Source: Kocuria turfanensis (lineage in GTDB: Bacteria > Actinomycetota > Actinomycetes > Actinomycetales > Micrococcaceae). From it: DNA of 64,000 nt. Shown one piece after another: positions 4,579-45,898 of this stretch. Numbering within the stretch: position 1 is the stretch's first letter; each line of letters opens with the position of its first letter. The translations under genes and the position numbers were made by a program. Location: assembly GCF_001580365.1 (NCBI RefSeq), contig NZ_CP014480.1, forward strand, positions 2,481,008-2,545,007, written 5' to 3'. The notes under the pieces were generated by a model that worked only from the letters and a program-made list of their open reading frames with translations, was not told the origin of the DNA and did no database searches.

Positions 4579-4586
4579 GGAGTTCC

Positions 4587-6383: not shown

Positions 6384-6401
6384 GGCGCCCCGTAACGAGA
6401 C

Positions 6402-6443: not shown

Positions 6444-6458
6444 ATCCTGCGTGGAGTG

Positions 6459-6959: not shown

Positions 6960-6978
6960 GAGTGATGTCCTCCCTTTT

Positions 6979-11132: not shown

Positions 11133-11581
11133 GCCGAAGTTCCCACGGTGAGGACCACGGTGACGCTGTCGTCGTCCTCGACGGTCTCGGACTCCAGGGT
11201 CATTCCGGCTCGGGGCGCCCGTTCTCGCAGTTTGGCGAGGACCTCCTGCTGGACCCGCCGCCCGTAGGCGGCATCGACCGCTGCGATGATCTGTTCCGCC
11301 CTGGCGGTGTCGACCTCGCCGACCAGGTGCACCGACCAGGCGCCCTCCGCGTCACGCTGGAAGTCGGCCTGGACGCCCTGCCACTCCGCCGACAGGCGAC
11401 TCTCATGAAGGGCCGTCGAAGCGCCGGTGTCAGCCAGCGCGGCGGCGAGGAGGTGCTCGTTGCGCATGCGGGTGGCAACATGGCACACCGTGCGGCCGTG
11501 CGCATCGGTCTCCGGGCGACTGGCCTTCCACGCGGCGACGGCGGCCATGGCCGCAGGGACCAAGATCAGGGAGACGCTCAT
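11129..11581 (-). CDS. DUF1257-like protein
   Basis: 150 residues. The N-terminus is hydrophobic (MSVSLILVPAAMAAVAAWKA), possibly an anchor, and the rest resembles DUF1257 proteins. There are two similar alpha/beta halves with signatures TRMRNEHLLAAALADTGAST and GRRVQQEVLAKLRERAP, ending in SETVEDDDSVTVVLTV. DUF1257 proteins co-occur with Ycf46-like ATPases and DUF2997. It lies 29 bases after the AAA+ gene and has an ATGA overlap with DUF2997. The hydrophobic start is unlike the usual DUF1257 beginning. Family call is moderately sure; function unknown. Confidence 0.72.
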   Translation of the reverse strand: MSVSLILVPAAMAAVAAWKASRPETDAHGRTVCHVATRMRNEHLLAAALADTGASTALHESRLSAEWQGVQADFQRDAEGAWSVHLVGEVDTARAEQIIAAVDAAYGRRVQQEVLAKLRERAPRAGMTLESETVEDDDSVTVVLTVGTSA

Positions 11582-11610
11582 GGGAATCCTCCCGGGGGCC
11601 GATTGCTCAT

Positions 11611-13323: not shown

Positions 13324-13560
13324 GTGCTGTCCCCTGTTCCTGTCACCGCCGATCCCTCGGCGAGCCGGTGCGTGAGGCCTTTCGAGGGCCTGTTGTGATC
13401 GTTTCCAAAGGTTATCTTCATCTACACGCATCTGTAGAGGAGTCCGGCCGAGATGTCGTCACTCTGTGTGCGCAATGGTGAAAGTGGCATCCGTCAGGTA
13501 TGACCCGGGAAGCCCATGCGGCGGATGGCAGGACGGCAGACCCAGGCCACTGCTACCGGG

Positions 13561-27604: not shown

Positions 27605-27660
27605 CCGCCGCACTGTGCACTCTGTTCCCGACGGATCCGGATGGAAGGATCAACGCGTGA
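27601..27660 (+). CDS. 19-codon reading frame linking pglX and pglY
   Basis: ATG at 27601 overlaps the pglX stop (ATGA). The frame encodes MTAALCTLFPTDPDGRINA and its TGA (27658-27660) overlaps the pglY GTG (GTGA). No family is recognisable. Its likely meaning is translational: ribosomes leaving pglX could be carried to the pglY start. Conservation of the peptide is untested; it could be a chance frame. Confidence 0.4.
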   Translation: MTAALCTLFPTDPDGRINA

Positions 27661-30600: not shown

Positions 30601-31376
30601 GGAAGATCCAAGGGACCTGGGAGCTCCGTCCGCAGGAGATGCCGGAGCCGGAGGAGTGGGACCGTGCCCGGAACCGGGCCTCGAAGCTCTTCGGCGTGGG
30701 CGACCAGCCGTACCTCACCGCCTCGGCGGTCAACCGCCTGAGCCAGCACGTCACGGACAAGGCCGCCGCGCTCGCCGCCCCGGCGCAGGACCTCGTCACC
30801 GCGCTGGAGCAGGCCTACGGGAAGCTCGGCCTACGCCAGGGAGCCCGGCTCGACATGGCACGGGCCGCGGCTACGCTTGTGCGGACCCTGCGGGAGCTGT
30901 CCGGGGTGCCTCTGGTCCGGCACCTCGCCGCCACCGACCTGCCCGGAACCGACGCGATGGCTTCGGTCTCTCTCGACAAGGCCGCAGCGGTGGCGCAGGC
31001 CCTCCGGACCGTCGAGTGGGAGCCGATCGAGGCCCTTCTGCGGGCCCGGGACGACTCGACCGAGCGCGGTGAGGCTGCTGCGAAGGTCCTCGACGCCCTC
31101 GGCACGGCACTGACCGCCCACGAGTACGAGCAGTCACTGGTCGGAGCGCTCGCGGTGGCGAAGAAGGCGGCCTGGGACTGGGCCATGCAGAGCTGGGGCC
31201 CGGTCCGTGCTGATCCGCCGGAGCAGCCGCCGGGCGATCTTCCTGACGTCGCCTGGCACACGCGAACCATCACGTGGGGCAACGGCTCCCTGCAGCAGCT
31301 GCAGCAGGAGCTCGATCAGCGCCACGCGGAGGGTCGCAGGGTCGAGCTGCGCTGGAGGTTCGTCGATGGCGGCTGA
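27657..31376 (+). CDS. pglY: PglY, BREX type 2 large P-loop ATPase
   Basis: 1239 residues from GTG 27657, with AAGGA ten bases upstream. The start MTSPLLKDVFDIP and the Walker A GSFGSGKSHF (residues 74-83) are typical of PglY/BrxC-type ATPases, and VVLFLDELVLWLA near residue 262 fits Walker B. A very long C-terminal region without obvious motifs is normal for this family. PglY is essential in Streptomyces Pgl, probably as a motor or remodelling ATPase at DNA. It overlaps pglZ by 11 bases. Confidence 0.93.
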   Translation: MTSPLLKDVFDIPRRAGAEDYVLRLTSTVDDDGAAQAIHDYVVTPALADAFDQALDLVSSGIRERKNRGAFLAGSFGSGKSHFMAVLHALLRHRPEARAIEELQGVVVRHDDALREKNILPLAFHFLDASSMEEALFDGYVEQVRALHPKAPLPAFYRTDDLLRDAEGLRASMGDAAFFAGLGGDAPADDEWGMVLGGDGWDRARYDAARAAGPHSTERQELVTALTDAYFRSYTRQGTYVDLDEGLRAMSEHAKGLGYDAVVLFLDELVLWLAFAMHTPDFFRRESQKITKLVEGAYGRLPVPLISFIARQMDLSQWFADSGASGSQQAALDQAFRHQEGRFATITLGDDNLPYVASKRLLQPKDDAARAAVEAAFERLDRTPDVWTVLLDGVNTDEQHRGADEKSFRMTYPFSPALVSTLRSLSGVMQRDRTALKVMQQMLVERQDTMTIDEVIPVGDAFDHIVTGKSNAVLDPQAAALFRSAAQLYEEKLRPVLLETNNLSPQDLEDRSSLPPAYLADERLAKTLLLSAVATKVPALSRLTTTRLASLNHGSIVSPLPGGEARVVGAKVRTWASRVPEIHVDDDHQDPVVRVQLSDVDYESIVEKARVEDNAGRQRNMLRRLLQENLELNLGEDTDMTGAHRHTVVWRGSRREIEIVFGNVRDAGDLPEDRLRATAGTWRFVIDHPFDEEGHSYREDVERIDSLLARNVASQTVLWLPRFLSQEKLKELRRLVVLDWLLTGSGDRWNQYSQHLSETDRSVAKEILHGQRRTLHDTLHKAVAQAYGVITAQAGTLQEGAANQVLWSLDRGFTPELATDRPMKVAFERLVADAFDASYPGHPEFEPADHEVRVPQLQHVLRHVERAVAHPDHRVPLEGDHVAVRRIANALNVGQATETHFLFGEDRFGDWPRLIARGMVEQGLQENEPVTVQQLRGILERAEPARGLRDEVADTVIIAWAALRQRAWFAYNVPMKEQAVPGKIQGTWELRPQEMPEPEEWDRARNRASKLFGVGDQPYLTASAVNRLSQHVTDKAAALAAPAQDLVTALEQAYGKLGLRQGARLDMARAAATLVRTLRELSGVPLVRHLAATDLPGTDAMASVSLDKAAAVAQALRTVEWEPIEALLRARDDSTERGEAAAKVLDALGTALTAHEYEQSLVGALAVAKKAAWDWAMQSWGPVRADPPEQPPGDLPDVAWHTRTITWGNGSLQQLQQELDQRHAEGRRVELRWRFVDGG

Positions 31377-34092
31377 CGTGCTCGCGGCTCCCGCCGTGAC
31401 GGGCGCTGCCGTGGCCGCCGTCGTCGCCAGGGTCGAGGCCGCCGGCCGTCACCGGAACGGCGGTGTCCTCGGCATCCGCGCGGTCCCCGACCCGAATGTC
31501 ACGGTGGCCCGCCCCTCACCGGCCGGCCACCGGATCCAGGTGGAAGCCTGCCCGTCCACCCTGGCGGTCTGGGACGCCCTGCACCGCTGGGACGGGATCG
31601 GGTGGCTGGTCGTCCTCACCGACCGGCCCGAGGACGACCTCGGACCCGGGACCCTTGCGCGCTTGGTCGACCACCGGCTCCTGACTCCGGATCCTTGGGA
31701 AGCGGCGATGCAGGTGTTCGGGGCCCGCACCCTCCAACGGGCGCTGCTCGCCGAGGGCAGGCAGTCCGACCTGCCGTCCCAGCTCGTCGCCATCACGCCC
31801 GACGACGGCTGGCCCACGGCGCCGGGCGGAGTGCTCACGAGGGAGCACGTGTTCGCCTCGGTGGCCGTGAAGTACCTCGGCCTGCCCCTGGGAGCCGACG
31901 CGCCGGGCATCCTCCAGTGGACCACGCGGCCCGAGTCGGTGGCGGCCGTCTCCACGCTGCGTGCGCAGACGGGCGACGCCCTGACCGATGCGGTTCTCGG
32001 CTGGCTGGCGGACCAGGCCGGTCCCGCGCGCCGCCCGGTCCTGCACCTGCTCCAGCGCGGACGGCTCGGCGAGGTCCTCCCCGCCGGCCTCGCCCTCCAC
32101 CTGCTCCGCCGCGCGTCGACCGCCCTGCGCGACGAGGCGCAGACGGCCGCCGTGCGGCTCACCGAGCGGCTCTGGAGCGGACTGGATCTCCGTTCCGAGG
32201 AGGCCGAGGGGCTCGGCACACTGTGCGAGGTCACGGTCCAGGAGCTCCTGGAGCGCACCGCCACCCGGGAGACCGGCGAGCGCATTCTCGACCGCACCGA
32301 CCGGATGCTCACCGAGGTCTCCGCACCGACGGTCGCCCGGCGCTCCGGCCTCCTGCCCTCATCGCTCGACACCGCCTACGAAGCGCTCGGCCGGGCGCTC
32401 GCGAACGGCACCCACGACGTGGAGTCCGCCTGGCAGACGGTCGACAAGCACCCTCTGGCGCAGGGTACCGGAGGCCGCCCGGATCCCAGGAGAGCTCCCG
32501 CCCACGCGGGAGTGCGGATCACGCGCTGGATCGCCCACCTGACCGAGGCGGGCGAATCCCCCGATCTGGTCTCGCTCACCCGCCGCCAGAGCGCCGACGA
32601 CGCCTGGGTGGATGCCGCCGTCAACACCGCCGCCCGCGGCGTGGACGCTCCGGACCTGGCAGTGGGGCTCGAAGCGGTCGTCGGTCGGGCGCTGGAGCTG
32701 CGCCGCGGCCACGACCGGGAGTTCGCCCGCGCCCTGGCGGACGAGGGCACCGCCACGGGCCGCCCCCTGCGCGGATCCGCGCAGGGCGACGGCAGGGTCT
32801 GGCGGATCGAGGAGCTGGCCCACGAGGTGATCGCCCCGATCACCCGCGAAGAACCCACTCTCGTGCTGCTGCTCGACGGCATGAGCACCGGAGCGGCGAC
32901 CCAGGTACTGGACAGCGTCCTGCAGGGCGGAGCGCAGTGGACGGAACTCGTCCCGGTCGGCACCACCCGCCGTGCCTCCGCGCTCGCCGTGCTGCCCAGC
33001 CTCACCGAACACAGCCGGACGTCCTTCTTCTGTGGCCGCCCGGTCACCGGTGGCCAGTCCGAGGAACGATTTGGCTTTGCCGAGATGGCCCGCGCAGCCG
33101 GCCACAGCTCCGGAAGGTTGTTCCACAAGGCTGTGCTGGACACCCGCCGCGCCGGCTTCCAGCTCGCCGCCGACGTCGCGGACACCATTGCCGACGTGTC
33201 CCGGCACCGCCTCGTCGGATGCGTGCTCAACACCATCGACGACGCCCTCGACCGCAGCGACCCCGCCGGGACGGTGTGGAACGAGGAGCTCGTCAAGCAC
33301 CTCCGCCCGCTGCTCGCCGCGGCCCATGCCGCCGGGCGGACGGTGATCCTCACCGCCGACCACGGGCACGTCGTCGAGCGGCGAGCGGGGACCAAGCTCC
33401 CGGCCACCGGGATCTCGAGCGCCCGCTCCAGGGCGCCCGAGGAGCCGGCCGGAGAGGGCGAGATCTTCGTCAGCGGGTCGCGCGTGCTCTCGCACGACGG
33501 CACCGCGGTGCTGGCCGTCGATGAGGACCTGCGGTACTCGACCCTCAAGGCCGGGTACCACGGCGGCGGCTCACCGGCCGAGGTGGTCGTCCCGCTGGTC
33601 GTGCTGACCCCGACCGCCACCGTCACCGGTGAGGAGGTCCGCGTCGCCGACTGGACGGGCGCTCCGTCCCAGGAACCGGTCTGGTGGAACCTCGCCCGGG
33701 CGGGGACTCCTCCGACAGCTCCTGAGCCGGAGGAGAACAGGGCCGGACAGGGAGAGTTCGACCTGTTCGAGCAACCTACGCCGCAGCCTGCGGGTCAGGC
33801 GGTGGTGGCGACCGAGCGCTACGCCGACCAGCGGAAGATCTCAGGGCGGGTGAGCCTGTCCGACGCCGTGGTCGCGGCTCTGATCGATGCCCTGCTGGGC
33901 GCCGACGGACATCGGATCGCGGCCCCGGCGGTGGCCTCCCTCCTGCGGATTCCCCAGCAGCGGGTGCAGTTCGCGGTGGGACAGGTGCAGAAGCTGCTCA
34001 ATGTCGAGGGCTACCGCGTGGTGCGCATGGACGGTGGCATGCTCGTGCTGGACGCCCCGCTCCTCACCCAGCAGTTCGGAGTCGCCGTATGA
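31366..34092 (+). CDS. pglZ: PglZ, BREX alkaline-phosphatase-fold protein
   Basis: 908 residues, with RBS CTGGAGG ahead of ATG inside the end of pglY. The PglZ domain occupies about residues 490-770, with LVLLLDGMSTG near 501 and the metal-binding-like VILTADHGHVVERR (D665, H666). The N-terminal half is helical and variable; a winged-helix-like tail (about 850-900) ends the protein. PglZ is the signature protein of all BREX types; its fold is shared with alkaline phosphatases and metal-dependent nucleases. Its stop overlaps brxD (ATGA). Confidence 0.94.
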   Translation: MAADVLAAPAVTGAAVAAVVARVEAAGRHRNGGVLGIRAVPDPNVTVARPSPAGHRIQVEACPSTLAVWDALHRWDGIGWLVVLTDRPEDDLGPGTLARLVDHRLLTPDPWEAAMQVFGARTLQRALLAEGRQSDLPSQLVAITPDDGWPTAPGGVLTREHVFASVAVKYLGLPLGADAPGILQWTTRPESVAAVSTLRAQTGDALTDAVLGWLADQAGPARRPVLHLLQRGRLGEVLPAGLALHLLRRASTALRDEAQTAAVRLTERLWSGLDLRSEEAEGLGTLCEVTVQELLERTATRETGERILDRTDRMLTEVSAPTVARRSGLLPSSLDTAYEALGRALANGTHDVESAWQTVDKHPLAQGTGGRPDPRRAPAHAGVRITRWIAHLTEAGESPDLVSLTRRQSADDAWVDAAVNTAARGVDAPDLAVGLEAVVGRALELRRGHDREFARALADEGTATGRPLRGSAQGDGRVWRIEELAHEVIAPITREEPTLVLLLDGMSTGAATQVLDSVLQGGAQWTELVPVGTTRRASALAVLPSLTEHSRTSFFCGRPVTGGQSEERFGFAEMARAAGHSSGRLFHKAVLDTRRAGFQLAADVADTIADVSRHRLVGCVLNTIDDALDRSDPAGTVWNEELVKHLRPLLAAAHAAGRTVILTADHGHVVERRAGTKLPATGISSARSRAPEEPAGEGEIFVSGSRVLSHDGTAVLAVDEDLRYSTLKAGYHGGGSPAEVVVPLVVLTPTATVTGEEVRVADWTGAPSQEPVWWNLARAGTPPTAPEPEENRAGQGEFDLFEQPTPQPAGQAVVATERYADQRKISGRVSLSDAVVAALIDALLGADGHRIAAPAVASLLRIPQQRVQFAVGQVQKLLNVEGYRVVRMDGGMLVLDAPLLTQQFGVAV

Positions 34093-35411
34093 GCACCGTC
34101 TCGCCCCGTCGTCGGCAGGAGATCATCGACGCCCTGCGCCGTGGCACCGTGCCCGCCAACGGGCTCGACCAGCTCGCCGTGGGCCTGGACCGCTTCCAGA
34201 GCGCGCTGAGCGAGGAGCTCGACGCCGTCGCCGGCGGCGGGTCCGTCGTGAAGGCCGTGCGCGGTGAGTACGGGACGGGCAAGACCTTCTTCGCCCGGCA
34301 CCTCTCGGAGTCGGCCCTGCGCCGGGGGTTCGCGGCCGCCGAGGTACAGATCTCGGAGACCGAGACGCCGCTGCACAAGCTCGAGACCGTCTACCGGCGG
34401 ATCACCGAATCGCTGCGCACCGCCTCCGTCCCGCCGTCCGCCTTCCGCTCCGTGCTGGACTCGTGGCTGTTCACCCTGGAGGACGACGCCCTGGCCGCGG
34501 ACGCCGCGCTGGACCCCTCCGATGCCGCCGCACTGGAAACGGCCGTGACCAAGCTGCTCGACGAGCGCCTGGCCTCCGTGAGCGCCAAGACCCCGGCCTT
34601 CGCCCAGGCTCTGCGCGGATACCGGGCGGCGGTTGCCTCCGGAGAGGCGGCCGTGGCCGACGGGCTGGCCGCTTGGCTCGGTGGGCAGCCGCACGTTGCT
34701 GCGGCCGCCAAGCGTGCCGCCGGGGTGAAGGGGGACCTCGACCACTTCGGGGCCATGGCGTTTCTCCAGGGACTGCTTCTCGTCCTGCGGGACGCCGGCC
34801 ACCCGGGACTCCTGGTCGTGCTGGACGAGGTCGAGACCCTGCAGCGCATGCGCTCCGACGTCCGCGACAAGGCGCTCAACGCCCTGCGCCAGCTCATGGA
34901 CGAGATCGACGCCGGGCGGTTCCCCGGCCTGTACCTCGTGCTCACCGGCACGCCCGCGTTCTTCGAGGGACCCTCGGGCGTGCCTCGCCTCCCACCGCTG
35001 GCGCAGCGGCTGGCCACGGACTTCACCACCGATGCGCGCTTCGACAACCCGCGGGCAGTGCAGATCCGCCTGCCCGGCTTCAGCCAGGACTCGCTGGTGG
35101 AGGTCGGCGGCCGGGTGCGTGACCTCTACGCGGCGGGATCGTCCGGTGCCGACCGGATCTGTTCCGTCGTCGACGACGCCTACCTGGCGGAGCTCTCCGC
35201 CGCGGTCGCGGGCGGGCTCGGCGGCCGGGTCGGCATCGCCCCGAGACTGTTCCTCAAGAAGCTCGTGGGGGATGTGCTCGACCGCGTCGATCAGTTCCCG
35301 GACTTCGATCCCCGGCAGCACTACTCCCTGACGCTCTCCCGCGACGACATGACGGACGTGGAGCGGAACGCCAGTGCGCGGACCGCTGACGACATCAGCC
35401 TCGACCTCTGA
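34089..35411 (+). CDS. brxD: BrxD, BREX type 2 ATP-binding protein
   Basis: 440 residues. It begins with the family start MSTVSPRRRQEIIDALRRGT. Walker A is GEYGTGKTFFARHL (G59-T66), Walker B LLVVLDEVETLQRM near residue 244, and LVLTGTPAFFEG follows. BrxD is a type 2-specific ATPase found with BrxHI. ATGA overlap with pglZ upstream; the stop and the brxHI start share one base (TGATG). Domain and context agree. Confidence 0.93.
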   Translation: MSTVSPRRRQEIIDALRRGTVPANGLDQLAVGLDRFQSALSEELDAVAGGGSVVKAVRGEYGTGKTFFARHLSESALRRGFAAAEVQISETETPLHKLETVYRRITESLRTASVPPSAFRSVLDSWLFTLEDDALAADAALDPSDAAALETAVTKLLDERLASVSAKTPAFAQALRGYRAAVASGEAAVADGLAAWLGGQPHVAAAAKRAAGVKGDLDHFGAMAFLQGLLLVLRDAGHPGLLVVLDEVETLQRMRSDVRDKALNALRQLMDEIDAGRFPGLYLVLTGTPAFFEGPSGVPRLPPLAQRLATDFTTDARFDNPRAVQIRLPGFSQDSLVEVGGRVRDLYAAGSSGADRICSVVDDAYLAELSAAVAGGLGGRVGIAPRLFLKKLVGDVLDRVDQFPDFDPRQHYSLTLSRDDMTDVERNASARTADDISLDL

Positions 35412-37537
35412 TGGCCTCCAGCGGATTCGACCTGCTCAGCCCGGCGGTCCAGCACCACATCGTCAACACCCTGGGCTGGCCGGCACTGCGACCGCTCCAG
35501 GACGAGGCCGTGGAGCCGTTGCTGCGCGGCGACGACGCCCTGCTGCTGGCCCCGACGGCCGGCGGGAAGACCGAGGCCGCCGTCTTCCCGTTGCTCTCCC
35601 GGATGTCCGAGGAGCAGTGGCAAGGGACCTCGGTGCTCTACGTCTGCCCCTTGCGGGCGCTGCTCAACAACCTCGAGCCGCGGATCGCCGCCTACACCGC
35701 CTGGCTCGGCCGGACGGCCGCCGTCCGTCACGGGGATGTCGGCGCATCCGCCCGGCGCCGTCAGGCCCTGCACCGTCCGGACATCCTGCTGACCACGCCG
35801 GAGTCGCTGGAATCCATGCTCGTCTCCACGAGCAGTGACCCCCGGCGGCTGTTCGCCGACGTGCGTGCCGTCGTCGTCGACGAGGTGCACGCCTTCGCCG
35901 GTGACGACCGCGGCTGGCACCTGCTCGGCGTCCTGGAGCGCATCAGCAGGCTGGCGGGGCACCCGCTCCAGCGGGTGGGCCTGTCCGCGACCGTGGGCAA
36001 TGCTCCGGACCTGCTCCACTGGCTCCAGGGCGGGGCAGCCGACCGGCCGGCCACGGTCGTTGCTCCGGAGACTTCCTCGGCCGTGGTCCCGGACATGGAA
36101 CACGATTTCGTCGGGAGCACCGACAACGCCGCGACGGTCATCTCCCTCCTCCACCGCGGGGAGAAGCGACTCGTGTTCGCCGACTCACGGCGGGTCGTGG
36201 AGGACCTGGCCCTGAGCCTGCACCACCGGGACGTCGAAACCCACGTCTCCCATTCGTCGCTGTCGGTCGACGCTCGACGCCGGGCCGAGGCGGCCTTCGC
36301 CGAGGGTCGGGACTGCGTCATCGTGGCCACCTCGACGCTGGAGCTGGGCATCGATGTGGGCGACCTCGACCGAGTCATTCAGGTGGGCGCTCCGGGCACG
36401 GTTGCTTCTCTGCTGCAGCGGCTCGGCCGCACGGGCCGGCGCTCGGGGACGTCGCGGAACATGCTCTTCCTGGGCACCAATGACGCCGAATTCCTGCGCG
36501 CCTGCGGGTTGCTGTTGCTCTGGTCCGAGGGCTACGTCGAGCCGGTCGTGCCTCCGCCCTCGCCGCGCCACGTCGCTGCCCAGCAGCTGCTCGGTCTCGT
36601 CCTGCAGGAGCGCCACGTCGGCCGGAACGTCTGGCCCGAGTGGTTCGGCGCACTCGGCCTGGCCTCACCGGTGGAGTGGGCCGAGATCCAGGACTGGCTC
36701 CTGCAGCAAGGACATCTCGACGAGGACGGCGGCATGCTTTTCGTCGGACCCGAGGCTGAGCGACGCTACGGCAAGATCCATTACCGGGACCTCATGGCGG
36801 TGTTCACGGCCGACCCGCAGATCATCGTCCTGCACGGCCGGCAGGAGGTCGGTGCCGTGGACCCGATGCTGTTGCAGCGCAAAGTCGAAGGGCCACGGCT
36901 GATCACCCTCGGCGGAAGACCCTGGCGAGTGACGTACATCGACTGGAAGCGGCGCAAGGCCTTCGTCGAGCCCTCTGAGAGTGGCGGCGCCGTCCGCTGG
37001 ATGAGCATGCCGCAACCCATCTCCTACGCTCTCTCGGACGCTGTGCGCCGGGTCCTGCTGGGTGCCGAGCCGGCCGGAGTGCGACTGACCAAGCGGGCCC
37101 AGGACAGGATCGCTGACCTCCGTGAGGACTACGCCCACCGGGTGGACGGTTCGGGGTCCGTGGTCACAGGGCAGGACGACAGCAGGGTGCGCTGGTGGAC
37201 CTGGGCAGGGGCGAGGGCCAACGCGGTGCTGGTCGCAGCGCTCTCCGATGTGGCCCCCGAGCTGTTCGAGACCACCACCGCTTTCGACAACTTCCAGATC
37301 GCCCTGCGCGGCGATGCGACCGGCGGCTCGGCGTTCGCGGCGCTTCGAGCGGCTCAGGCGAAGTTCGGTCCGGAACTCGCCGAGGCTGTTCCCGAGACCG
37401 ACGAGAAGGCGGTCCGGCAGCTGAAATTCTTCGAGATGTTGCCGCCCGCGCTTTCCCTGCGGACGGTCGCCGAGCGGATGACCGACCGGGCTGGAACGGG
37501 ACGGATACTGGCGCGCAAACGCATCATCCACCGCTGA
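35411..37537 (+). CDS. brxHI: BrxHI, BREX type 2 Lhr-like DEAD/DEAH helicase
   Basis: 708 residues. Motif I is APTAGGKTEAA (47-57), motif II VVVDEVHAF (D157), motif III VGLSATVGN, and the second RecA domain shows VATSTLELGIDVGDLDRVIQ and QRLGRTGRRSG. The C-terminal 270 residues fit the Lhr-type helicase tail. It would unwind or translocate on nucleic acid for BREX. It is the last gene of the six-gene operon; about 150 AT-richer bases separate it from the next gene. Confidence 0.93.
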   Translation: MASSGFDLLSPAVQHHIVNTLGWPALRPLQDEAVEPLLRGDDALLLAPTAGGKTEAAVFPLLSRMSEEQWQGTSVLYVCPLRALLNNLEPRIAAYTAWLGRTAAVRHGDVGASARRRQALHRPDILLTTPESLESMLVSTSSDPRRLFADVRAVVVDEVHAFAGDDRGWHLLGVLERISRLAGHPLQRVGLSATVGNAPDLLHWLQGGAADRPATVVAPETSSAVVPDMEHDFVGSTDNAATVISLLHRGEKRLVFADSRRVVEDLALSLHHRDVETHVSHSSLSVDARRRAEAAFAEGRDCVIVATSTLELGIDVGDLDRVIQVGAPGTVASLLQRLGRTGRRSGTSRNMLFLGTNDAEFLRACGLLLLWSEGYVEPVVPPPSPRHVAAQQLLGLVLQERHVGRNVWPEWFGALGLASPVEWAEIQDWLLQQGHLDEDGGMLFVGPEAERRYGKIHYRDLMAVFTADPQIIVLHGRQEVGAVDPMLLQRKVEGPRLITLGGRPWRVTYIDWKRRKAFVEPSESGGAVRWMSMPQPISYALSDAVRRVLLGAEPAGVRLTKRAQDRIADLREDYAHRVDGSGSVVTGQDDSRVRWWTWAGARANAVLVAALSDVAPELFETTTAFDNFQIALRGDATGGSAFAALRAAQAKFGPELAEAVPETDEKAVRQLKFFEMLPPALSLRTVAERMTDRAGTGRILARKRIIHR

Positions 37538-37686
37538 GCCATGTAGTGCTTACGGCAGAGCGGCGGTAGCGACTCCTGCCACGGCATTGCGCTACGAACG
37601 AGCCCAAATGGCTGAAACACTCGAAACCGGAATGGTTCTGTTGCAAGCTCGGAGTGGGTAGTGCTTTTGTGAAAGGAATTTTTTCA

Positions 37687-38616
37687 ATGGATATCGACAG
37701 CGATTCGTTATCGAGTGGGGTCCCCACCTGGCCTGAGTTCCTGAAGCCTGTGCTGGAAGTCCTCAGCAGCGGTCAAACCTATCACCGCAGGGAACTCATC
37801 GACCGTGCCGCCGAGGTTGCACATCTCGGTGACGCAGCGCGGGCCGAACGGCTGAACAGCGGCGGATTGCGCTATGTCCAACGCATGGGCTGGACCCTCA
37901 GCCACCTCTCCCGCGCTGGCCTGATCGACCGGCCCAGACGGGCGCACTACGCCATCAACGACGCCGGACGCGCATGGCTTGCAGAGCATCCGGAGGGTAT
38001 GAACTACAGCACCGCCCATACGTTCTTCTCGCCGTACTGGCGGACCGATTCCACCAAGAACCCCGACACCGCGGTCGCGCCGGACGTGGAGGCCCTCGAT
38101 CCGCTGGAGAAGATCGACCAGGGCATCGAACAGCTCCACGTGGAAGTCGGAGAGGAACTGCTGACAAGGTTGCGCGAGAGCCATCCCGACTTCTTCGAGG
38201 AAGCCGTCGTCCGTGTCCTGCTGAGGATGGGGTACGGAGGTGCCGAGGCCCGTGGTCAGCGCATCGGTGGCAGCGGCGACGGTGGTGTGGACGGCGTGAT
38301 CGACCAGGACCCGCTGGGTCTCGACCAGATCTACGTCCAGGCCAAACGGTACGCCGAGGGCAACACCGTGGGCCGCGAGGCCATCCAGGCCTTCGTCGGT
38401 GCACTGCACGGCCGCGGTGCGTCGAAGGGCATCTTCATCACCACGAGCGCCTTCACGCAGGGCGCGAAGGAGTACGCCGGGATGGTGCCCTCCCGGCCCA
38501 TCCTCATCGACGGCGCCCGGCTGGTGAAGCTGATGCTGAAGTACAAGGTCGGCGTCCAGGTGAAGCAGACCTACGAGATCGTCGACGTCGACGAGGACTT
38601 CTTCGAGGGAGTCTGA
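37687..38616 (+). CDS. mrr: Mrr restriction endonuclease
   Basis: 309 residues, matching E. coli Mrr in length and layout. Residues about 10-100 are the N-terminal winged-helix Mrr_N (PTWPEFLKPVLEVLSSG). The catalytic PD-(D/E)xK domain shows GGSGDGGVDGVIDQD (D202) and YVQAKRY (Q218-x-K220), then GIFITTSAFTQGA. Mrr is a type IV enzyme cutting DNA with certain adenine or cytosine methylation. ATG 37687 is preferred because AAAGGA precedes it; an upstream GTG at 37654 is possible. The intergenic 37538-37686 probably carries its promoter. Confidence 0.92.
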   Translation: MDIDSDSLSSGVPTWPEFLKPVLEVLSSGQTYHRRELIDRAAEVAHLGDAARAERLNSGGLRYVQRMGWTLSHLSRAGLIDRPRRAHYAINDAGRAWLAEHPEGMNYSTAHTFFSPYWRTDSTKNPDTAVAPDVEALDPLEKIDQGIEQLHVEVGEELLTRLRESHPDFFEEAVVRVLLRMGYGGAEARGQRIGGSGDGGVDGVIDQDPLGLDQIYVQAKRYAEGNTVGREAIQAFVGALHGRGASKGIFITTSAFTQGAKEYAGMVPSRPILIDGARLVKLMLKYKVGVQVKQTYEIVDVDEDFFEGV

Positions 38617-38644
38617 CGGTGTCCCCACGGCAGGACAACGAGCG

Positions 38645-39610
38645 ATGACGCAGTCGACGGAACGGCTGGAGATGATTCGGGTGGACGTCCGTGACGTCGA
38701 CTCGCTCTCCGCCGTGAGCAATGCGTTCTCTGCAGGCTCCTCGCGGTGCGGAATCTATGTCCTGCACTTCGCCGGCGGTTACGAGTACGTCGGACAGGCG
38801 CAGGACGTACTCGCCAGATTCCGCACTCATGTGCGGTCCTGGTCCCACCCCGTTGTGGCGCTCGACTTCGCCCCCGTCCCGGTGGAGGAACTCAACGAAA
38901 CAGAACGCCGGGTCATACAGGCGAAGGAACGCGCCGGCGTGAGGTTGCGCAATTCCGCCCTGGTCGGGCTGCCGATGGGTGACGCGGCTGTGGACGTTCA
39001 CGTCACCAGGGCCGAGCAGGAACGGTGGTTGGATGGCGTCACCCCGGACATCGATGTCAGTGGCCGGTGCACCCAAGCCGACGGCCGTGACCGCTCTGGG
39101 AAGAACTTCACGGCGCTGGCGCTGCGCCCGTACTACGACGTGCTGCTCGACATCCTCGCCGCCTACGTCCGGCACGTGCTTCCGGCGCCGGAGTCCACCG
39201 AGAAGACGTTCTGGTACGTCAGCGCCATGCCCAGCACCGGCCGCACTTCCACGTGGCAGCGCGTCGCGGCGATCACCGTCAACAATGTCGAGACCCTCGT
39301 CATCGGTGAGACGACGGAGAACGGTCGAGTCTTTCTTGACGGCTTCCTCAATGTCGCTCCCGGACTACGACTGCCCTCCACATTGAACGTCGAGCTGGTC
39401 GAATACCGGACCGTGGGCCAAGTGCAAACCATCCGAGCGGAGGCCGCTTTCCTGGAATTCGCCGTCTACCATCCTCTGGTGCGGGATGCGGCCCGTACCA
39501 CCGCGATGGGTCTGCTCCGCAAGGGGACGTCGATGATGGGGCGCTACCACTGCGTGCCTCTGGCCGACGACATCTTCCGCCGGATCCATCGAGAAGAGCT
39601 TGCACGGTGA
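38645..39610 (+). CDS. GIY-YIG nuclease-domain protein
   Basis: 321 residues. The N-terminal GIY-YIG fold is complete: GIY at 36-38, YVG at 48-50, R60 and H62 in ARFRTH, E87 in NETERRVIQ and N103 in LRNS. Residues about 110-320 have no recognised domain but keep regular structure (KTFWYVSAMPSTGRTSTWQR). It should cut DNA with a single metal site. It lies 28 bases after mrr and its stop overlaps the next start (GTGA). First gene of a four-gene, tightly coupled set with DUF6361, PLD and helicase proteins. Target unknown. Confidence 0.87.
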   Translation: MTQSTERLEMIRVDVRDVDSLSAVSNAFSAGSSRCGIYVLHFAGGYEYVGQAQDVLARFRTHVRSWSHPVVALDFAPVPVEELNETERRVIQAKERAGVRLRNSALVGLPMGDAAVDVHVTRAEQERWLDGVTPDIDVSGRCTQADGRDRSGKNFTALALRPYYDVLLDILAAYVRHVLPAPESTEKTFWYVSAMPSTGRTSTWQRVAAITVNNVETLVIGETTENGRVFLDGFLNVAPGLRLPSTLNVELVEYRTVGQVQTIRAEAAFLEFAVYHPLVRDAARTTAMGLLRKGTSMMGRYHCVPLADDIFRRIHREELAR

Positions 39611-40818
39611 CGTCTTTCCTCTCCTGGCTCGACACCGACTCCCACCAGCGCGACCAGGCCATGGCCGTCCTCGACGCGTTCCGGGACAGGACCACTGTGG
39701 ACGAGCTCGGCGTCGGCAGCATCCGCGACGCGATCACCCACCAGTTGTTCCCCGGCTCCTCGGTCCTGCACACCCGGGCCCGGTATTTGCTGTTTATCCC
39801 GTGGCTTGTCGCCGACGCCATGGCGGCCAAGGACGCCGACGCGGCCGTCGCCGAGCTGCGCCGCGGGGAGGTACGGCTCATCGACGTGCTGGCAGAGAGT
39901 GACGACCGGCAGGGGCTGATCGGCGGCCAAGCAAGGGCCGATCTGCGGCGCATGCCCTCGGCCATGTACTGGGCGGCGCTGCGCAGCTACGGCATCTCCA
40001 CGAGCCGTGCCTCGATCGCCGGACTGCTGCGGGATGGCGTGGCTTTCACCGTCGAGACCCGCCGGGCGCCGCGTGAGGCCGATGGTGAGCACGGCCCGAC
40101 GTTGCTCCGTCCCGGCCTCGACCCCCACGCACTCCTTCTCCGCCCGCGGGACTGGCCGCAGGAAGCGAGTTTCGCCCTCACTCCCGCCGAGGCCGACTAC
40201 CTGCGCGGGCGGATCATGACCTCGCACCCGGAGAGCCTCTACGCATGGTTCCTGCGCGAGGAGGTCGATGTCGAGACCGCTGAGCGCTTCGTGTGGGAGC
40301 ACCCGCGAGCCGGCGACTTCCCGGCCGCGATGGCCAGGTGGGTCGAGCACGGCCGGGCGTTCTCCGTACTCAACCGCGGGGCCGCGCTGCTCTACAACCT
40401 CCAGCTCGCCGAGGCCTCCGAGGACGCAGAGCGCACCGAGAGGTACCGTGCGGACCTCCTCGAGTGGCGCGCCACCGTCGACGGTCCCGACGGTCTGCGG
40501 AACTGGAGCCCGGACATCTTCTGGCAGCTGCTCGCCGGGACCGGCGCCCGCATCAGCCGCCCGACGTGCACGTTCGTGGACCGCTGGCACGGGCTCGTCG
40601 CCTCCGGGTCCGGGATTGTCGACGACGTCGCCGCCCGCGAACTCATCGCCCACCGCGAGCGCTCCCTCAAGGGCCCGCGCGCCCGGCTCGTGAACCCGAG
40701 CGCGCTCAACGCCTGGAGCGGCGCTTCGGCGCTGGGACAGCTGCAGTACAACTGGCCGATCGTCCGGCGGATCATCGCCGACATCCACACCGGTGCCCGA
40801 GTGGAGACCGTCGTATGA
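39607..40818 (+). CDS. DUF6361 family protein
   Basis: 403 residues from GTG in a GTGA overlap. The N-terminus (FLSWLDTDSHQRDQAM, then DELGVGSIRDAITHQLFPGS and LHTRARYLLFIPWLV) is the DUF6361 signature. No catalytic motif or membrane segment was seen. DUF6361 is uncharacterised. Its place between a GIY-YIG nuclease and a PLD nuclease, with overlaps on both sides, suggests it is a subunit, sensor or adaptor of a nuclease complex; that role is inference. Confidence 0.82.
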   Translation: MTSFLSWLDTDSHQRDQAMAVLDAFRDRTTVDELGVGSIRDAITHQLFPGSSVLHTRARYLLFIPWLVADAMAAKDADAAVAELRRGEVRLIDVLAESDDRQGLIGGQARADLRRMPSAMYWAALRSYGISTSRASIAGLLRDGVAFTVETRRAPREADGEHGPTLLRPGLDPHALLLRPRDWPQEASFALTPAEADYLRGRIMTSHPESLYAWFLREEVDVETAERFVWEHPRAGDFPAAMARWVEHGRAFSVLNRGAALLYNLQLAEASEDAERTERYRADLLEWRATVDGPDGLRNWSPDIFWQLLAGTGARISRPTCTFVDRWHGLVASGSGIVDDVAARELIAHRERSLKGPRARLVNPSALNAWSGASALGQLQYNWPIVRRIIADIHTGARVETVV

Positions 40819-42692
40819 GCCTGGGGCCGGAGGACCGGAAGCTGCTCACCGACGCGCTCGAACCACCGCCGGGGATGGAGCTGGACCGCGCCGTCACCAC
40901 GACCTACTCCCTGGACCTCGTGGCCCTGTTGCTGGTGCCGCTGACCTTCGCTGCGATCGACCAGCGGGGGAGCGAGGAAAGCGCTGGGGAGCCGGATCAG
41001 GGAGTCGATCCTGTGGCGCTGCTGGAGTCGGTGCGCCGCTACGCGGACCGGTTGACCGTGCTCGTGCAGGCGGGCGGCATCGCGGTGCCGGCCAGGTACC
41101 GGCCGATGCTGACCTATCTGGAGGGCACCCTCGTCCAGGTCGCCGTGCCCGGGACCGGGGGCGTGTTCCATCCCAAGGTGTGGGTGCTGCGCTTCCGCGA
41201 CGCCGAGGGCAAGCTGGCCCATCGGGTGCTCGTGCTCAGCCGCAACCTGACCTTCGACAACTCCTGGGACACCATCCTGGTTCTGGACGAGTCCGACGAC
41301 CCGCGGGAGAACCTGATGCCCGGCCGAGAGCTGGCCGACTACCTGGCAACGACCGCCTCCTGGGCCGTGGCTCCCGGACTGAGCGCTGAGCGGACGGAGG
41401 AGCTCGCCGACCTCAATGCGTCGCTGAGCGGAGTTTCCTTCGCAGCGCCCGCCGGGTTCAAGGACGCCGCGTGGGTCACCCGCACGGGTGAGCGCTCCGT
41501 GCACACCCGGTCCCTGTGGGAGGACGTGACCGGCGGCGTCCACGCCCAGGACCGCGCCACCCGGGCGCTGGTGATCTCCCCGTTCCTCGACACCTCGCTC
41601 GCGGACCTCGTCGACCGGTGCGGGACGGTCCGGCTGCTCTCCCGCGCCGAGAGTCTCGACGCCCTCGACGCCCTCGGCGACCTGGCGGAGCGGGTCGAGA
41701 CCTTCGTCCTGGACCCCTCGGCTGACCTGGACGGCACCGAGGACGAAGACGTTGAGGGCAGCGTGGGGTCGAAGTCGGCCGGCCGGCTGGCTGGTCTGCA
41801 CGCCAAGATCTACCTCGTGGAGCGAGGCCATAGCACTACCCTGTACGTCGGCTCGGCCAACGCCACCCGCGGTGGCTTCGGCCGCAATGCGGAGTTCGGC
41901 GTCCGGCTGACGGGCCGTAAAGGGCTCATCGACGACATCTGGTCTGGAACCCACGGCAACCTCGGCCTGTCCGCGGTCTGCCAGCCGTACGACCCGAAGC
42001 CGCCGGACGAGGCCGCGATCGCCCGGCAGCAGGCCGAGCGGGAGCTCGAGCGCTTCCACGCCGCGCTTGCCGGTGCCGGGCTGCGCCTCGACGCCGTCGA
42101 GGAAGCCGACGGCACGTACACCCTGGAAGCCTCCTTCGGCCGCCCGGTCGGGGAACCCGACGGCGTCACGACGACCGTCCGACTGCTGTCCCTGCCCGCC
42201 CACGAGCGGATGCTGGGCGAGGCGCTGACGTGGTCCCGCGTCGACGCCTCGCGGATCACGCCGTTGCTCTGCGTGCGCAGTCACACGTCGGTGGGCGGCG
42301 GCGTCGTCGAACGCTCCGCCGTGCTGGTCGCGGACCTGCACGGTGCTCCGGAGGACCGCTCCGCGCGCGTGCTCGCCGAGCTGCTGAAGACCCCGGAGGA
42401 CGTGCTGCGCTACCTGGCGTTCCTGCTCGGCGACGTCACGCTGTCCCAGGCCCTGCGCTTCGGCGGCACCACGGGCGCGGCCGCGTTCTTCGGGGCGGGC
42501 AGCACCGGGCACAGCGCCGACGTGGTCCTGTTCGAGCCCCTCATGCGCGCCGCGGTGCACGGTGACGCCGACGCCCTCGGCCGCATCGACCGGCTCGTCG
42601 GCGAGCTCAGGGCCGTCGAGGCCCTGCACCTGCTCCCCGACGGGCTGGAGGAGCTCGTCACCGTGGTCCGCGAGGCGGTGACCACCCCATGA
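40815..42692 (+). CDS. Phospholipase D-family nuclease-like protein
   Basis: 625 residues with two half-sites of a PLD active centre. The first is VFHPKVWVLRFRD (H119, K121) followed by LVLSRNLTFDN. The second is LHAKIYLVERG (H329, K331) followed by LYVGSANATRGGFGRNAEFG. This H-x-K then S-x-N pattern is that of PLD-type nucleases rather than lipid hydrolases. The C-terminal 250 residues are unassigned. Overlaps at both ends (ATGA) couple it to DUF6361 and the helicase. Similar PLD-helicase pairings occur in DISARM (DrmC), but the other DISARM parts are absent. Confidence 0.86.
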   Translation: MSLGPEDRKLLTDALEPPPGMELDRAVTTTYSLDLVALLLVPLTFAAIDQRGSEESAGEPDQGVDPVALLESVRRYADRLTVLVQAGGIAVPARYRPMLTYLEGTLVQVAVPGTGGVFHPKVWVLRFRDAEGKLAHRVLVLSRNLTFDNSWDTILVLDESDDPRENLMPGRELADYLATTASWAVAPGLSAERTEELADLNASLSGVSFAAPAGFKDAAWVTRTGERSVHTRSLWEDVTGGVHAQDRATRALVISPFLDTSLADLVDRCGTVRLLSRAESLDALDALGDLAERVETFVLDPSADLDGTEDEDVEGSVGSKSAGRLAGLHAKIYLVERGHSTTLYVGSANATRGGFGRNAEFGVRLTGRKGLIDDIWSGTHGNLGLSAVCQPYDPKPPDEAAIARQQAERELERFHAALAGAGLRLDAVEEADGTYTLEASFGRPVGEPDGVTTTVRLLSLPAHERMLGEALTWSRVDASRITPLLCVRSHTSVGGGVVERSAVLVADLHGAPEDRSARVLAELLKTPEDVLRYLAFLLGDVTLSQALRFGGTTGAAAFFGAGSTGHSADVVLFEPLMRAAVHGDADALGRIDRLVGELRAVEALHLLPDGLEELVTVVREAVTTP

Positions 42693-45600
42693 GCGCAGCA
42701 CCGCGCCGTCCCGACGTGGAGCGGGAACTGAACGGGCTCAAGGACTTCCAACGCCGCACCGTCGAGTACGCCCACCGCCGGCTGTGGGAGGACGAGGACT
42801 CCAGCCGCCGCTTCCTCGTCGCCGACGAGGTCGGGCTCGGCAAGACGCTCATCGCCCGCGGCCTCATCGCCAAGGCCATCGATCACCTCTGGGAATCTGC
42901 GGAGGTCGACCGGATCGACATCGTCTACATCTGCTCCAGCCAGCAGATCGCCGCCCAGAACATCCAGACCCTGGATGTCGCCGACTACGGCATCTCCAAG
43001 GTGGACCGGCTGACCATGCTCCCCACGCAGGTGCGCAATCTCGCCGCGAACAAGGTCAACCTGCTCAGCCTCACCCCGGGAACGTCCTTCAACATCAGCC
43101 AGTCCGGCGGACGCAGCGAAGAACGGGTGCTGGTCCAGCACATGCTCGCCCAGGTTCTCGGTGAGCACGTGGTGCGGCGGCCGGAGTGGTTGGCCTTCTT
43201 CTGCGGCACGAAACGACCGCAGAACTACGTGGCCGAGGTGGCCGGCTTCGACCCAGACACCATCGACGCCGAGATTCTTGAGCGCTTCCGGCTCGCCGTT
43301 CTCCAGGACCCGGAGCTGTGCCACCGGCTCGAGGAGGCCGCCGCCGAGTTCGTTTCGGTGACCGGCAATCCGGACTGGCCGCTCTCCCACCGCCGCTACC
43401 GCCTGATCGGGGAGCTGCGTCGGCTGGTCGCGCAGGCCTCGGTCGACGCCCTCCAGCCGGATCTGGTGATCCTCGACGAGTTCCAGCGCTTCAAGAGCCT
43501 CCTGCACGAGGACACCGAGATGTCCGAACTCGCCGACGCCGTGTTCAGCCACGAGGGCGCCCGCGTGGTGCTGCTCTCCGCCACGCCCTACAGCATGTAC
43601 TCCGTCCCGGAGGAGGGTGTGGGCGACGACCACTACGGCGACTTCCTCAAGACCTACCGCTTCCTCACCGGGGCGTCGAGGGACGCGCTCGCGGGAGAGC
43701 GGGACGAGGACGGGTCCGCCCTCGTCGGCTCGGTCGCCGAGCTGCAGACCGGGCTCCGGAGGATGCGCGACGCCGCCCTGGCCGACGACGTCGAGGACGG
43801 TACCGCGGCCGCCGCGCACGTCACCGAGCTGCTCCGCGCGGTCATGTGCCGCACCGAGCGTCTGGCCGCCACCCCGGACCGCGACGGAATGCTTGTCGAG
43901 AAGACGCTGCCGCCGGCCCGGCCCACGGCCGACGACGTGCGGGCCCTGTGCCGGCTGCACGAGGTCGCCCGAGAGGTGGGCAGCTACCGCGACGTCCTGG
44001 AGTACTGGCGGGTGGCGCCCTACGTCCTGCAGTTCATGGACGGGTACGACCTCAAACAGAAGACCCTTGATCACGTGGAGAAGGACGACTCCGGCTTCGC
44101 GGGACGTGCCGTCGCCGGCGCGCAGCAACTGCGCGGCGAGGAGATCGAGCGCTACGCCCTGGTCGATCCCGCCAACGGCCGGTTGCGGTGGTTGCTCTCC
44201 GACCTGGACGACTACGGCTTCGCAGACGTCCCCTGGATCCCCGCCTCCCTGCCGTACTACACCGTGCCGGAGACCAGCCCCTTCTTCCGCGCGACGACGA
44301 CGGGGCTCACCAAGCGGCTGATCTTCTCGGCCTGGAACGTCGCCCCGAAGTCCATCGCGGCGATGACCAGCTACCACGTTGAGCGGAAGCACCACCGGCC
44401 GGAGGACACCCACGCCTACTCCGACCGGCACAGCTACCTGCTGCGCTGGCGGAAGTCCCCGGACGGCCGCCTCGCCAGCATGCCGCTGCTGCCCCTCGTC
44501 CTGCCCCTCACGGTGCTCGGCGCCGCCGGTGACCCCGTGGCCGCCGCCCGGGAGCTCGGTACAACACAGGCGTCGCTGGACGACGTCCGCGCCGTGGTGC
44601 GGGCCAAGGTCGGGAACCTGCTGGCCGACCTGCCCTCCGGGCACGCCGAGGGCCGGGGGAGCGAGCAGTGGTACTGGGCGGCGCCGCTGTTCCTCGAAAA
44701 GGCGCGCTCCCCGGAAGTCTTCAAGGTCGCGCTCGACTCGATCAAGTGGGCCAACCACGCCGACGACGAGCGCGATGGCGGCAAGGCCTCCGCGCTCGCC
44801 CTGCACCTCGCCCGGGCCAAGGAGATCGACGAAGCCTTCCTGGCGGAGCTCGGTCCTCGTCCGGACGACCTGGCCGAGGTGCTGACCGATCTCGCGCTCG
44901 CCGCGCCGGCCACGGTCGCCGAACGGGCGCTGTGCGCAGCGGTGCCAGAGTGCGTCCGGGCGGACGCGGTCTGGCGGTCGGTGCGCATCGCCCTGGGCCT
45001 GCGCACCCTGCTGGACTCCCGTACCGTGGCGCCAATGCTGCGCGGCTGGGCCGGCGAATCGGCGCCGCAGTGGCGCAATGTGCTGGCGGTCTGCCTCGAG
45101 GGCAATCTCCAGGCGGTGCTCGACGAGTACTTCCACGTCCTCGACGAGGCCTCCCGGATCGGCAGCGTCGCTCCCATCGACCGGCTCCAGGCGCTGACGG
45201 AGGCCCTGGTTGACGCCGCTCAGAGCGGTGGCTCGATCTCCTTCGATGAGATCGTCCCGGATGGGGACTCCCACCGGGTCGAGCGCCGCCGCCTGCGAGC
45301 CGATGCAGCCGCCCGCTTCGGTCGCGTGGAGAGCGATCAGGGCGTCCGTGCGGACACCAGCCTCCGCAACGGCTTCAACTCACCGTTCTGGCCGTTCGTG
45401 CTGGCCTCCACGAGCATCGGCCAGGAGGGGCTGGACTTCCACCGGTATTGCCACGCCGTCGTCCACTGGAACCTGCCCAACAACCCCGTCGACATGGAGC
45501 AGCGCGAGGGACGCGTGCACCGGTACAAAGGGCACGCGGTGCGCAAGAACGTGGCGAAGGAGTTCTCGGCCGCGGTGCTCGACGACGATGCTGCGGCCAG

Positions 45601-45898
45601 CCCATGGGACGCCCTCTTCGCCGCAGGGGAGCGGGCGCGGCCGGACGGGGAGAGCGAGATCTACCCGTACTGGGTCTGCCAGACCGAGAGCGGGGCGAAG
45701 ATCGAGCGTTATGTCCCGCAGGCGCCGCTGAGCGCCGAGCGGATCAAGCACAAGAACCTGCTCCGTGCCCTGGGCCTCTACCGCATGGCACTGGGCCAGC
45801 CGCGCCAGGAGGAGTTCCTGCAGGTCATCGGCAAGGACGCCGAGTCGCGGGACCTGGCCTGGATGCGCCTGGATCTGGGACCGGAGCAAAGACCGTGA
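42689..45898 (+). CDS. SNF2-like superfamily 2 helicase/translocase
   Basis: 1069 residues. Motif I is VADEVGLGKT (K52), motif II LVILDEFQRFK (D263-E-F-Q), motif III VLLSATPYSMYS near 297. After a long insertion the second RecA domain shows STSIGQEGLDFHRY near 910 and MEQREGRVHRYKGH near 937. The order fits SNF2-type ATPases with a large central insertion. It would translocate along duplex DNA and deliver the PLD or GIY-YIG nuclease. It closes the operon; the next gene starts 104 bases later with its own RBS. Confidence 0.9.
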   Translation: MSAAPRRPDVERELNGLKDFQRRTVEYAHRRLWEDEDSSRRFLVADEVGLGKTLIARGLIAKAIDHLWESAEVDRIDIVYICSSQQIAAQNIQTLDVADYGISKVDRLTMLPTQVRNLAANKVNLLSLTPGTSFNISQSGGRSEERVLVQHMLAQVLGEHVVRRPEWLAFFCGTKRPQNYVAEVAGFDPDTIDAEILERFRLAVLQDPELCHRLEEAAAEFVSVTGNPDWPLSHRRYRLIGELRRLVAQASVDALQPDLVILDEFQRFKSLLHEDTEMSELADAVFSHEGARVVLLSATPYSMYSVPEEGVGDDHYGDFLKTYRFLTGASRDALAGERDEDGSALVGSVAELQTGLRRMRDAALADDVEDGTAAAAHVTELLRAVMCRTERLAATPDRDGMLVEKTLPPARPTADDVRALCRLHEVAREVGSYRDVLEYWRVAPYVLQFMDGYDLKQKTLDHVEKDDSGFAGRAVAGAQQLRGEEIERYALVDPANGRLRWLLSDLDDYGFADVPWIPASLPYYTVPETSPFFRATTTGLTKRLIFSAWNVAPKSIAAMTSYHVERKHHRPEDTHAYSDRHSYLLRWRKSPDGRLASMPLLPLVLPLTVLGAAGDPVAAARELGTTQASLDDVRAVVRAKVGNLLADLPSGHAEGRGSEQWYWAAPLFLEKARSPEVFKVALDSIKWANHADDERDGGKASALALHLARAKEIDEAFLAELGPRPDDLAEVLTDLALAAPATVAERALCAAVPECVRADAVWRSVRIALGLRTLLDSRTVAPMLRGWAGESAPQWRNVLAVCLEGNLQAVLDEYFHVLDEASRIGSVAPIDRLQALTEALVDAAQSGGSISFDEIVPDGDSHRVERRRLRADAAARFGRVESDQGVRADTSLRNGFNSPFWPFVLASTSIGQEGLDFHRYCHAVVHWNLPNNPVDMEQREGRVHRYKGHAVRKNVAKEFSAAVLDDDAAASPWDALFAAGERARPDGESEIYPYWVCQTESGAKIERYVPQAPLSAERIKHKNLLRALGLYRMALGQPRQEEFLQVIGKDAESRDLAWMRLDLGPEQRP

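Follow-up and report, generated by a model that had tools for sequence, protein, structure and literature searches.

An Azaca defence locus with a likely accessory GIY-YIG nuclease gene in Kocuria turfanensis

The window considered here is a 64,000-nt stretch of Kocuria turfanensis DNA (contig NZ_CP014480.1). Between its positions 38645 and 45898 lie four open reading frames (ORFs), all on the plus strand and chained by 4-nt overlaps (GTGA at 39607, ATGA at 40815 and ATGA at 42689). The first, gene 1, encodes a putative GIY-YIG endonuclease; the other three encode ZacA, ZacB and ZacC, the core of the defence system Azaca (Table 1). An earlier note, made from the letters alone, had described these four genes and their GTGA, ATGA and ATGA joints; the frames, coordinates and joints were confirmed in the sequence. 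The arrangement is beyond chance, the ratio of non-synonymous to synonymous divergence (dN/dS) being 0.11–0.24 for all four genes, and for the Mrr gene before them, in a comparison with the Kocuria genome G662. The locus is likely Azaca plus one accessory gene, which would make it a variant of a known system and not a new system. The reading favoured below, which we consider somewhat probable, is that the 5′ GIY-YIG gene is a likely exchangeable accessory, predicted to cut or nick invader DNA for Azaca to act upon.

Judged by profile comparison, genes 2–4 are the catalogued system Azaca and not an undescribed one, because all three Zac profiles of PADLOC match over nearly the full length of the proteins: ZacA with 411 bits (residues 1–397 of 403), ZacB with 522 bits (3–623 of 625) and ZacC with 1043 bits (9–1065 of 1069). 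The three genes are adjacent on one strand in the order A–B–C (39607–45898), as in other loci. The earlier note had proposed an undescribed system, a claim to be given up on a match to a catalogued one, and such a match is what genes 2–4 gave. A wholly new four-gene system unrelated to Azaca might appeal to gene 1, for which no PADLOC or NCBIfam match was found, and to the term 'DUF6361', of which no mention was found in the literature searched, but the three nearly full-length profile matches in the same order rule it out for genes 2–4 and leave it hardly any probability as a whole.

Table 1. Features of the Azaca locus and its immediate surroundings (window coordinates).
Feature	Coordinates	Strand	Remarks
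Gene 1, GIY-YIG endonuclease (predicted)	38645..39610	+	321 aa; likely accessory, outside Azaca core
ZacA (DUF6361), Azaca core	39607..40818	+	403 aa; PADLOC ZacA, PF19888, AF2 model
ZacB, PLD-like nuclease, Azaca core	40815..42692	+	625 aa; PADLOC ZacB, conserved residues
ZacC, SNF2-like/SF2 ATPase motor, Azaca core	42689..45898	+	1069 aa; PADLOC ZacC
Probable modular joint gene 1/ZacA	39600..39610	+	4-nt stop/start overlap; divergence step; onset of G647 homology
Mrr-like type IV (modification-dependent) restriction endonuclease	37654..38616	+	PADLOC mREase_IV, 259 bits
BREX type 2 set (PglW, PglX, PglY/BrxC, PglZ, BrxD, BrxHII)	19842..37537	+	PADLOC 687–1573 bits

ZacA, for which the earlier note had suggested a possible role as adaptor or sensor, matches the Pfam family DUF6361 (PF19888) with 160.9 bits. 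Its AlphaFold2 (AF2) model, with a pLDDT of 91, is nearly all-helical, and structural comparison of the model gave no convincing relative. The length of ZacB is counted from the ATG at 40815; its reading frame stays open further 5′. The protein reaches 25.0 bits with the PLD-like profile of Pfam, slightly under the cut-off of 27. Conserved motifs were read from alignments of 40–43 sequences per protein. Among 40 ZacB sequences, that of the window included, H119-P-K121, R143-N144, H329-A-K331 and S347-x-N349 are kept in at least 93%, and ZacB appears to hold two PLD-type HxK half sites in a single chain. The two would be H119-P-K121 followed by R143-N144 and H329-A-K331 followed by S347-x-N349. 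ZacC gives matches to DEAD (28.3 bits) and Helicase_C (30.5 bits), each above its cut-off, and among 41 sequences, again with that of the window, G49-L-G-K52, D263-E-F-Q-R267, S297-A-T-P300 and Q938-R-E-G-R942 are kept in at least 93%. The PLD and motor residues are intact in the proteins of the window.

Azaca, with its genes ZacA, ZacB and ZacC, was reportedly first described by Millman et al. in 2022. A table in PMC10952713 lists it as a defence system with a PLD-like domain. It is named among the systems enriched in Actinobacteria, mechanism unknown (PMC10482375), among systems outside restriction-modification that have an SF1/SF2 helicase (PMC12278908) and in a Pseudomonas island hotspot (PMC12629846), and the entry in a 2026 review gives its mechanism as 'Unknown' (PMC12926258). 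In the literature searched, 'Azaca' and 'GIY-YIG' were found together in PMC10952713 alone, where they stand in different rows of the table.

Gene 1 has a GIY-YIG domain at residues about 33–107, followed by a C-terminal part without assigned function; several of its homologues begin about 9 residues later. Residues Y38, Y48, R58, E87 and N103 are invariant among 27 sequences, and we take them to be the catalytic set by analogy with I-TevI and UvrC. The predicted structure has a GIY-YIG fold. Against the Pfam profile PF01541 the protein scores 13.1 bits, under the cut-off of 22.6, and its classification comes from the residues and the predicted fold, not from that profile. The product is thus predicted to be a DNA-cutting GIY-YIG enzyme with its catalytic set intact. 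It differs from the GIY-YIG enzymes I-TevI and UvrC (N-terminal domain) in its C-terminal part and in that several of its homologues lie near restriction genes. Nor did tblastn (E ≤ 0.001) give any match to it in 50,697 phage records. In one branch of the gene-1 family (P0015, P0017, P0018, P0021, P0023 and P0026) the GIY-YIG nuclease is fused at its N-terminal side to a DNA-binding domain of the HU/IHF type (PF00216). GIY-YIG nucleases are known in defence from PD-T4-3 and PD-lambda-1, single-gene or small systems of E. coli; these are not reported with Azaca in the passages of PMC10952713 and PMC9519451 that concern them, and their comparison with gene 1, through the PADLOC scan, gave no match. 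The earlier note had seen two different types of nuclease and a large SNF2-like helicase or translocase in the four genes, and both descriptions, the latter as an SNF2-like/SF2 motor, are supported.

The window shares with G662 a block at 37713–45883 (8.2 kb, 85.5% identity) that comprises Mrr, gene 1 and ZacABC and begins inside Mrr; in 20 kb of G662, no further common stretch of more than 80 bp was found outside it. The Mrr gene that opens the block, and whose stop lies 28 nt 5′ of gene 1, is 86% identical and has the equivalent position in L041/L114, taken to be the G662 locus. The congener G647 has ZacABC at 87–92% identity, without gene 1 and without Mrr; its homology to the window begins at 39608, where ZacA starts, and 5′ of ZacABC are ORFs that were read by eye as transposases. 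Beside the GIY-less Azaca of a congener (L115, 15588–17976) are two ORFs, one recognised by eye as PLD-like and the other bearing the Zn-binding domain of MrfA (MZB), a pair that is perhaps DISARM-like and is flanked by ORFs reading as transposases.

Identity between the window and G662, taken in 200-bp steps, is 0.69–0.79 in gene 1 and 0.84–0.92 in ZacA, with a step at 39600 (0.73 at 39400–39599, 0.89 at 39600–39799). The fraction of identical third codon positions is 0.53 for gene 1 and 0.79 for ZacA, and synonymous divergence (dS) is 0.76 for Mrr, 1.04 for gene 1, 0.34 for ZacA, 0.29 for ZacB and 0.39 for ZacC. From the identity step and the contrast in dS, gene 1 and ZacA seem to have had different histories, with an intact nuclease gene retained in the slot in both genomes, and the joint between them is probably modular.

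GIY-YIG genes were looked for beside 44 other Azaca loci, of which 27 came from the class and family, 12 from plasmids (of 43 records found) and five from a search of the phylum. ORFs were detected with the profile of gene 1, with a query of the DUF4357 type and by regular expression, in stretches of 5–21 kb for Azaca and 20 kb for controls. Seven of the 44 loci have one nearby (L036, L114, L120, L122, L124, L130 and L131), and in four of them (L114, L130, L131 and L124) it shares the strand of Azaca and lies within 165 nt of it. The gene in L114 (G662) is of the gene-1 type and overlaps ZacA by 4 nt. In L130 and L131 (G643 and G484) a GIY-YIG/DUF4357 gene lies 17 nt 5′ of ZacA; the two proteins reach 59.3 and 53.6 bits with Pfam DUF4357 and 18.6 and 20.9 bits with GIY-YIG, under the cut-off of 22.6, and L131 has an additional GIY-YIG gene 3′ of ZacC (GIY_YIG_2, 95 bits). 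A DUF4357-type gene is found 125 nt 3′ of the ZacC ORF in L124 (G645), and a 70-aa remnant of this type in L132 (G607), entered as a remnant and not as a hit. The proteins of L036 and L124, which match DUF4357 and not GIY-YIG in Pfam, were assigned by motif and by identity (32.7% and 52.5%) to the L130 protein. L120 has a GIY-YIG/Schlafen-group-3 helicase ORF on the opposite strand, and L122, at a contig end, is apparently alike. The gene-1 and DUF4357 types have little in common outside the region of the catalytic motif.

The rate beside type I restriction loci (HsdM) of the same family is 1 of 40, and beside BREX-2 loci (PglX), in genomes outside the ZacA hits, 0 of 5; in 29 genomes, 28 relatives and that of the window, Pfam finds one to four GIY-YIG matches per genome. 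The excess at Azaca has a p of 0.012 for actinobacterial loci (7/32 against 1/40) and of 0.039 for all loci (7/44 against 1/40). The HsdM controls were taken one per genome in list order, with hits near contig ends skipped, and L219 was retained though it is the gene-1 locus L145. Short contigs (L119, L128 and L177) and loci with partial ZacA (L179 and L180) stayed in the denominators, and false positives of the regular expression were removed by eye (L128 and L163 among the Azaca loci; L196, L201 and L235). One GIY-YIG match given by Pfam, in L040, escaped the expression, whose sensitivity is limited, equally for Azaca and control sets; that match (L040 686–988, G000:C1:2545693-2545995, 23.2 bits) lies just beyond the window and some 19 kb away from Azaca. 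The excess of GIY-YIG genes near Azaca over type I restriction is suggestive and not proof, since the idea arose from some of the counted loci before the count was made.

A different type of partner is seen on plasmids. Of the 12 plasmid loci, six (L164, L165, L166, L167, L169 and L170) have a UvrD-type helicase gene that ends 2–113 nt 5′ of ZacA, and 5′ of it is an annotated PD-(D/E)XK nuclease gene in four of the six (L164, also by Pfam, L166, L167 and L169); in L170 that position is taken by a hypothetical protein of about the same size, and L165 is without annotation. The two genes 5′ of ZacABC would presumably form an AddAB-like pair. These UvrD–ZacABC plasmids belong to rhizobia and Niveispirillum, and with the PD-(D/E)XK gene the arrangement (about 2400–12100 in the loci) is a recurrent row of five genes. 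The search for GIY-YIG genes gave none in these 12 plasmid loci.

Several counts and comparisons weigh against tying gene 1 to Azaca. Of 295 genomes of the family, 20 have ZacA and 26 have a member of the gene-1 family; the two adjoin in 2 of the 20 ZacA genomes (that of the window and G662), in none of 8 other class loci and in none of the 12 plasmid loci, and they occur together in 4 of the 295 genomes, where 1.8 are expected (p 0.09). Counted by genus, by hand, the GIY-YIG excess is non-significant (5/20 against 1/22, p 0.07), and the five Azaca genera include that of the window through G662; the same-strand subset within 165 nt is also non-significant (4/32 against 1/40, p 0.12), and the post hoc origin of the count belongs here too. 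Mosaic structure shows at several points of the block common to the window and G662: identity climbs from 0.78 to 0.94 toward the 3′ end of Mrr, and within ZacC it falls to 0.73–0.76 at 44600–45199. Mrr and gene 1, more diverged than ZacABC, may not have travelled with it as one unit. From the side of gene 1, ZacABC adjoins 1 of 23 loci in the genome collection, some of which are on contigs of 3–9 kb where neighbours can be missed. Co-conservation of all four genes, which the earlier note had named as a check, fails for gene 1 in these family and class counts. Because few ZacA genomes have an adjoining gene 1, and G647 has ZacABC without it, gene 1 is likely an accessory and not a core gene of Azaca.

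The settings of gene-1 homologues elsewhere bear on the main alternative, a substantial possibility if not a probable one: that Azaca here is ordinary, and that gene 1 pairs functionally with Mrr, as GIY-YIG with type IV restriction, or is a stand-alone restriction-type nuclease and a chance neighbour of ZacA. In the survey of 43 gene-1 loci, two duplicate other contigs and in three the gene is unpredicted; 14 neighbouring proteins, picked by size or closeness, were scanned, 10 with PADLOC and 10 with Pfam, six of them with both. Three congeners have Mrr near a gene-1 homologue without Azaca, convergent and touching or 82 nt apart in L138 and L139, and separated by about 1 kb and an intervening ORF in L141. 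GmrSD is directly 5′ of the homologue in L047 and about 190 nt 5′ in L051 (same contig as L142), HsdM is 68 nt 3′ in L145/L219, and a PD-(D/E)XK restriction protein is two genes 3′ in L042. Mrr and gene 1 are also alike in having a synonymous divergence above that of ZacABC, and G647 has ZacABC alone. On the other side, the 4-nt overlap of gene 1 with ZacA, seen in each of the two genomes with the pair, suggests coupled translation, and the equivalent slot in G643 and G484 is occupied by a GIY-YIG family unrelated to gene 1. Neighbours without a restriction role are a relaxase (near L136), threonyl-tRNA synthetase (L057), an MFS transporter (L138) and a UvrA-like protein (L144); the scanned neighbours at L050, L055 and L058 gave no PADLOC match, and that at L149 no Pfam match. 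In L047 (4511–14739) a GmrSD-like gene, the abutting gene-1-type GIY-YIG gene, a 94-aa ORF with a 4-nt overlap and a 2198-aa Hhe/PDC-S37-like gene form a row on one strand, possibly a four-gene system.

The earlier note had placed the four genes directly downstream of BREX-2 and Mrr, and both are indeed found at 19842–38616. The BREX type 2 gene set is complete; it ends outside the block common to G662, in which no PglX match was found at E ≤ 1e-100. For these two reasons BREX-2 was rejected as part of the unit: the common unit is Mrr–GIY–ZacABC or ZacABC, and BREX-2 is only a neighbour. A composite cassette in which BREX-2, Mrr, gene 1 and Azaca cooperate is accordingly very unlikely, even though all are on one strand and ZacA is found in 3 of the 8 PglX genomes of the family (p about 0.015, with the PglX sample of 275 genomes and the ZacA sample of 295 treated as identical); of the 20 ZacA genomes, no more than these 3 gave a PglX hit. 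In G645 (G645:C1:690000-727000; L226, L124) a BREX-2 set with two tandem PglX genes lies within about 12 kb of Azaca, and in G484 PglX and ZacA are on different contigs.

DISARM has DrmA, DrmB and DrmC as its core, with a methyltransferase. It likewise contains a PLD-like protein and an SNF2-like helicase (DrmC and DrmD), but membership of the four genes was rejected: no match to DrmB or a methyltransferase was found among them at E ≤ 0.01, matches to DrmA, DrmC and DrmD are local and far weaker than those to the Zac profiles, and the best DrmD score in PADLOC is 48 bits, against 1043 bits for the ZacC profile on the same protein. The earlier note's separation of the locus from DISARM therefore holds; for DrmA, absent according to the note, the match obtained here is local and weak. 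Compared with Azaca as catalogued, all three core genes and their order are the same, and here Mrr and a GIY-YIG gene overlapping ZacA come first. Hachiman (HamAB) also combines a nuclease with a helicase, the latter described as the sensor in the account of PMC12278908; it has two genes of different families and is no more than an analogue of the sensing step proposed here.

The surrounding island has several type IV restriction genes (14999–18965, besides the Mrr gene next to gene 1): a second Mrr-type gene at 14999–16036 and a McrBC-like pair at 15766–17811 and 17514–18962, all 5′ of BREX-2. On the minus strand, at 11614–13431, is an AAA ATPase gene like IetA (84 bits), possibly of a further defence system. 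No tRNA genes were found in the 64,000 nt.

DNA translocase–nuclease machines often need a loading place. On the favoured reading, that gene 1 is an exchangeable accessory serving Azaca, the GIY-YIG enzyme would cut or nick invading DNA, which would then be a substrate for the Azaca proteins. ZacC would act as an ATP-driven translocase loading on the invader's ends, nicks or forks; ZacB, as a PLD nuclease having a pair of HxK sites, could be the effector carried along with it, and ZacA might serve as a scaffold or gate between the two. The ends required by the core would be produced or processed by the neighbouring partner, perhaps on DNA that is modified, which would widen the range of attackable targets. 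The partner would vary: GIY-YIG after Mrr here, GIY-YIG/DUF4357 in three genomes and UvrD on six plasmids, in four of them with the annotated PD-(D/E)XK nuclease gene; an Mrr enzyme, too, would create or process such loading places. A broader proposal, tentative and rather unlikely in its full form, is that Azaca consists of a core machine and an end-making module that can be exchanged, for which independent lineages have placed beside ZacABC GIY-YIG (of two families) or UvrD with PD-(D/E)XK since ZacC–ZacB needs a nick, end or fork, the partner deciding which invaders supply one; Mrr–GIY–ZacABC would then be a type IV-restriction-coupled Azaca.

Genes 2–4 themselves are already known, and the part worth following is the recurrence of DNA-cutting neighbours of Azaca. 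The boundary of the Azaca unit varies, which calls for caution in catalogue searches. A single genus offers two natural arrangements at 85–92% identity, ZacABC alone (G647) and Mrr–GIY–ZacABC (the window and G662). If Azaca recurrently recruits DNA-cutting or end-processing partners, this would hint at the substrate of its core and make its mechanism testable.

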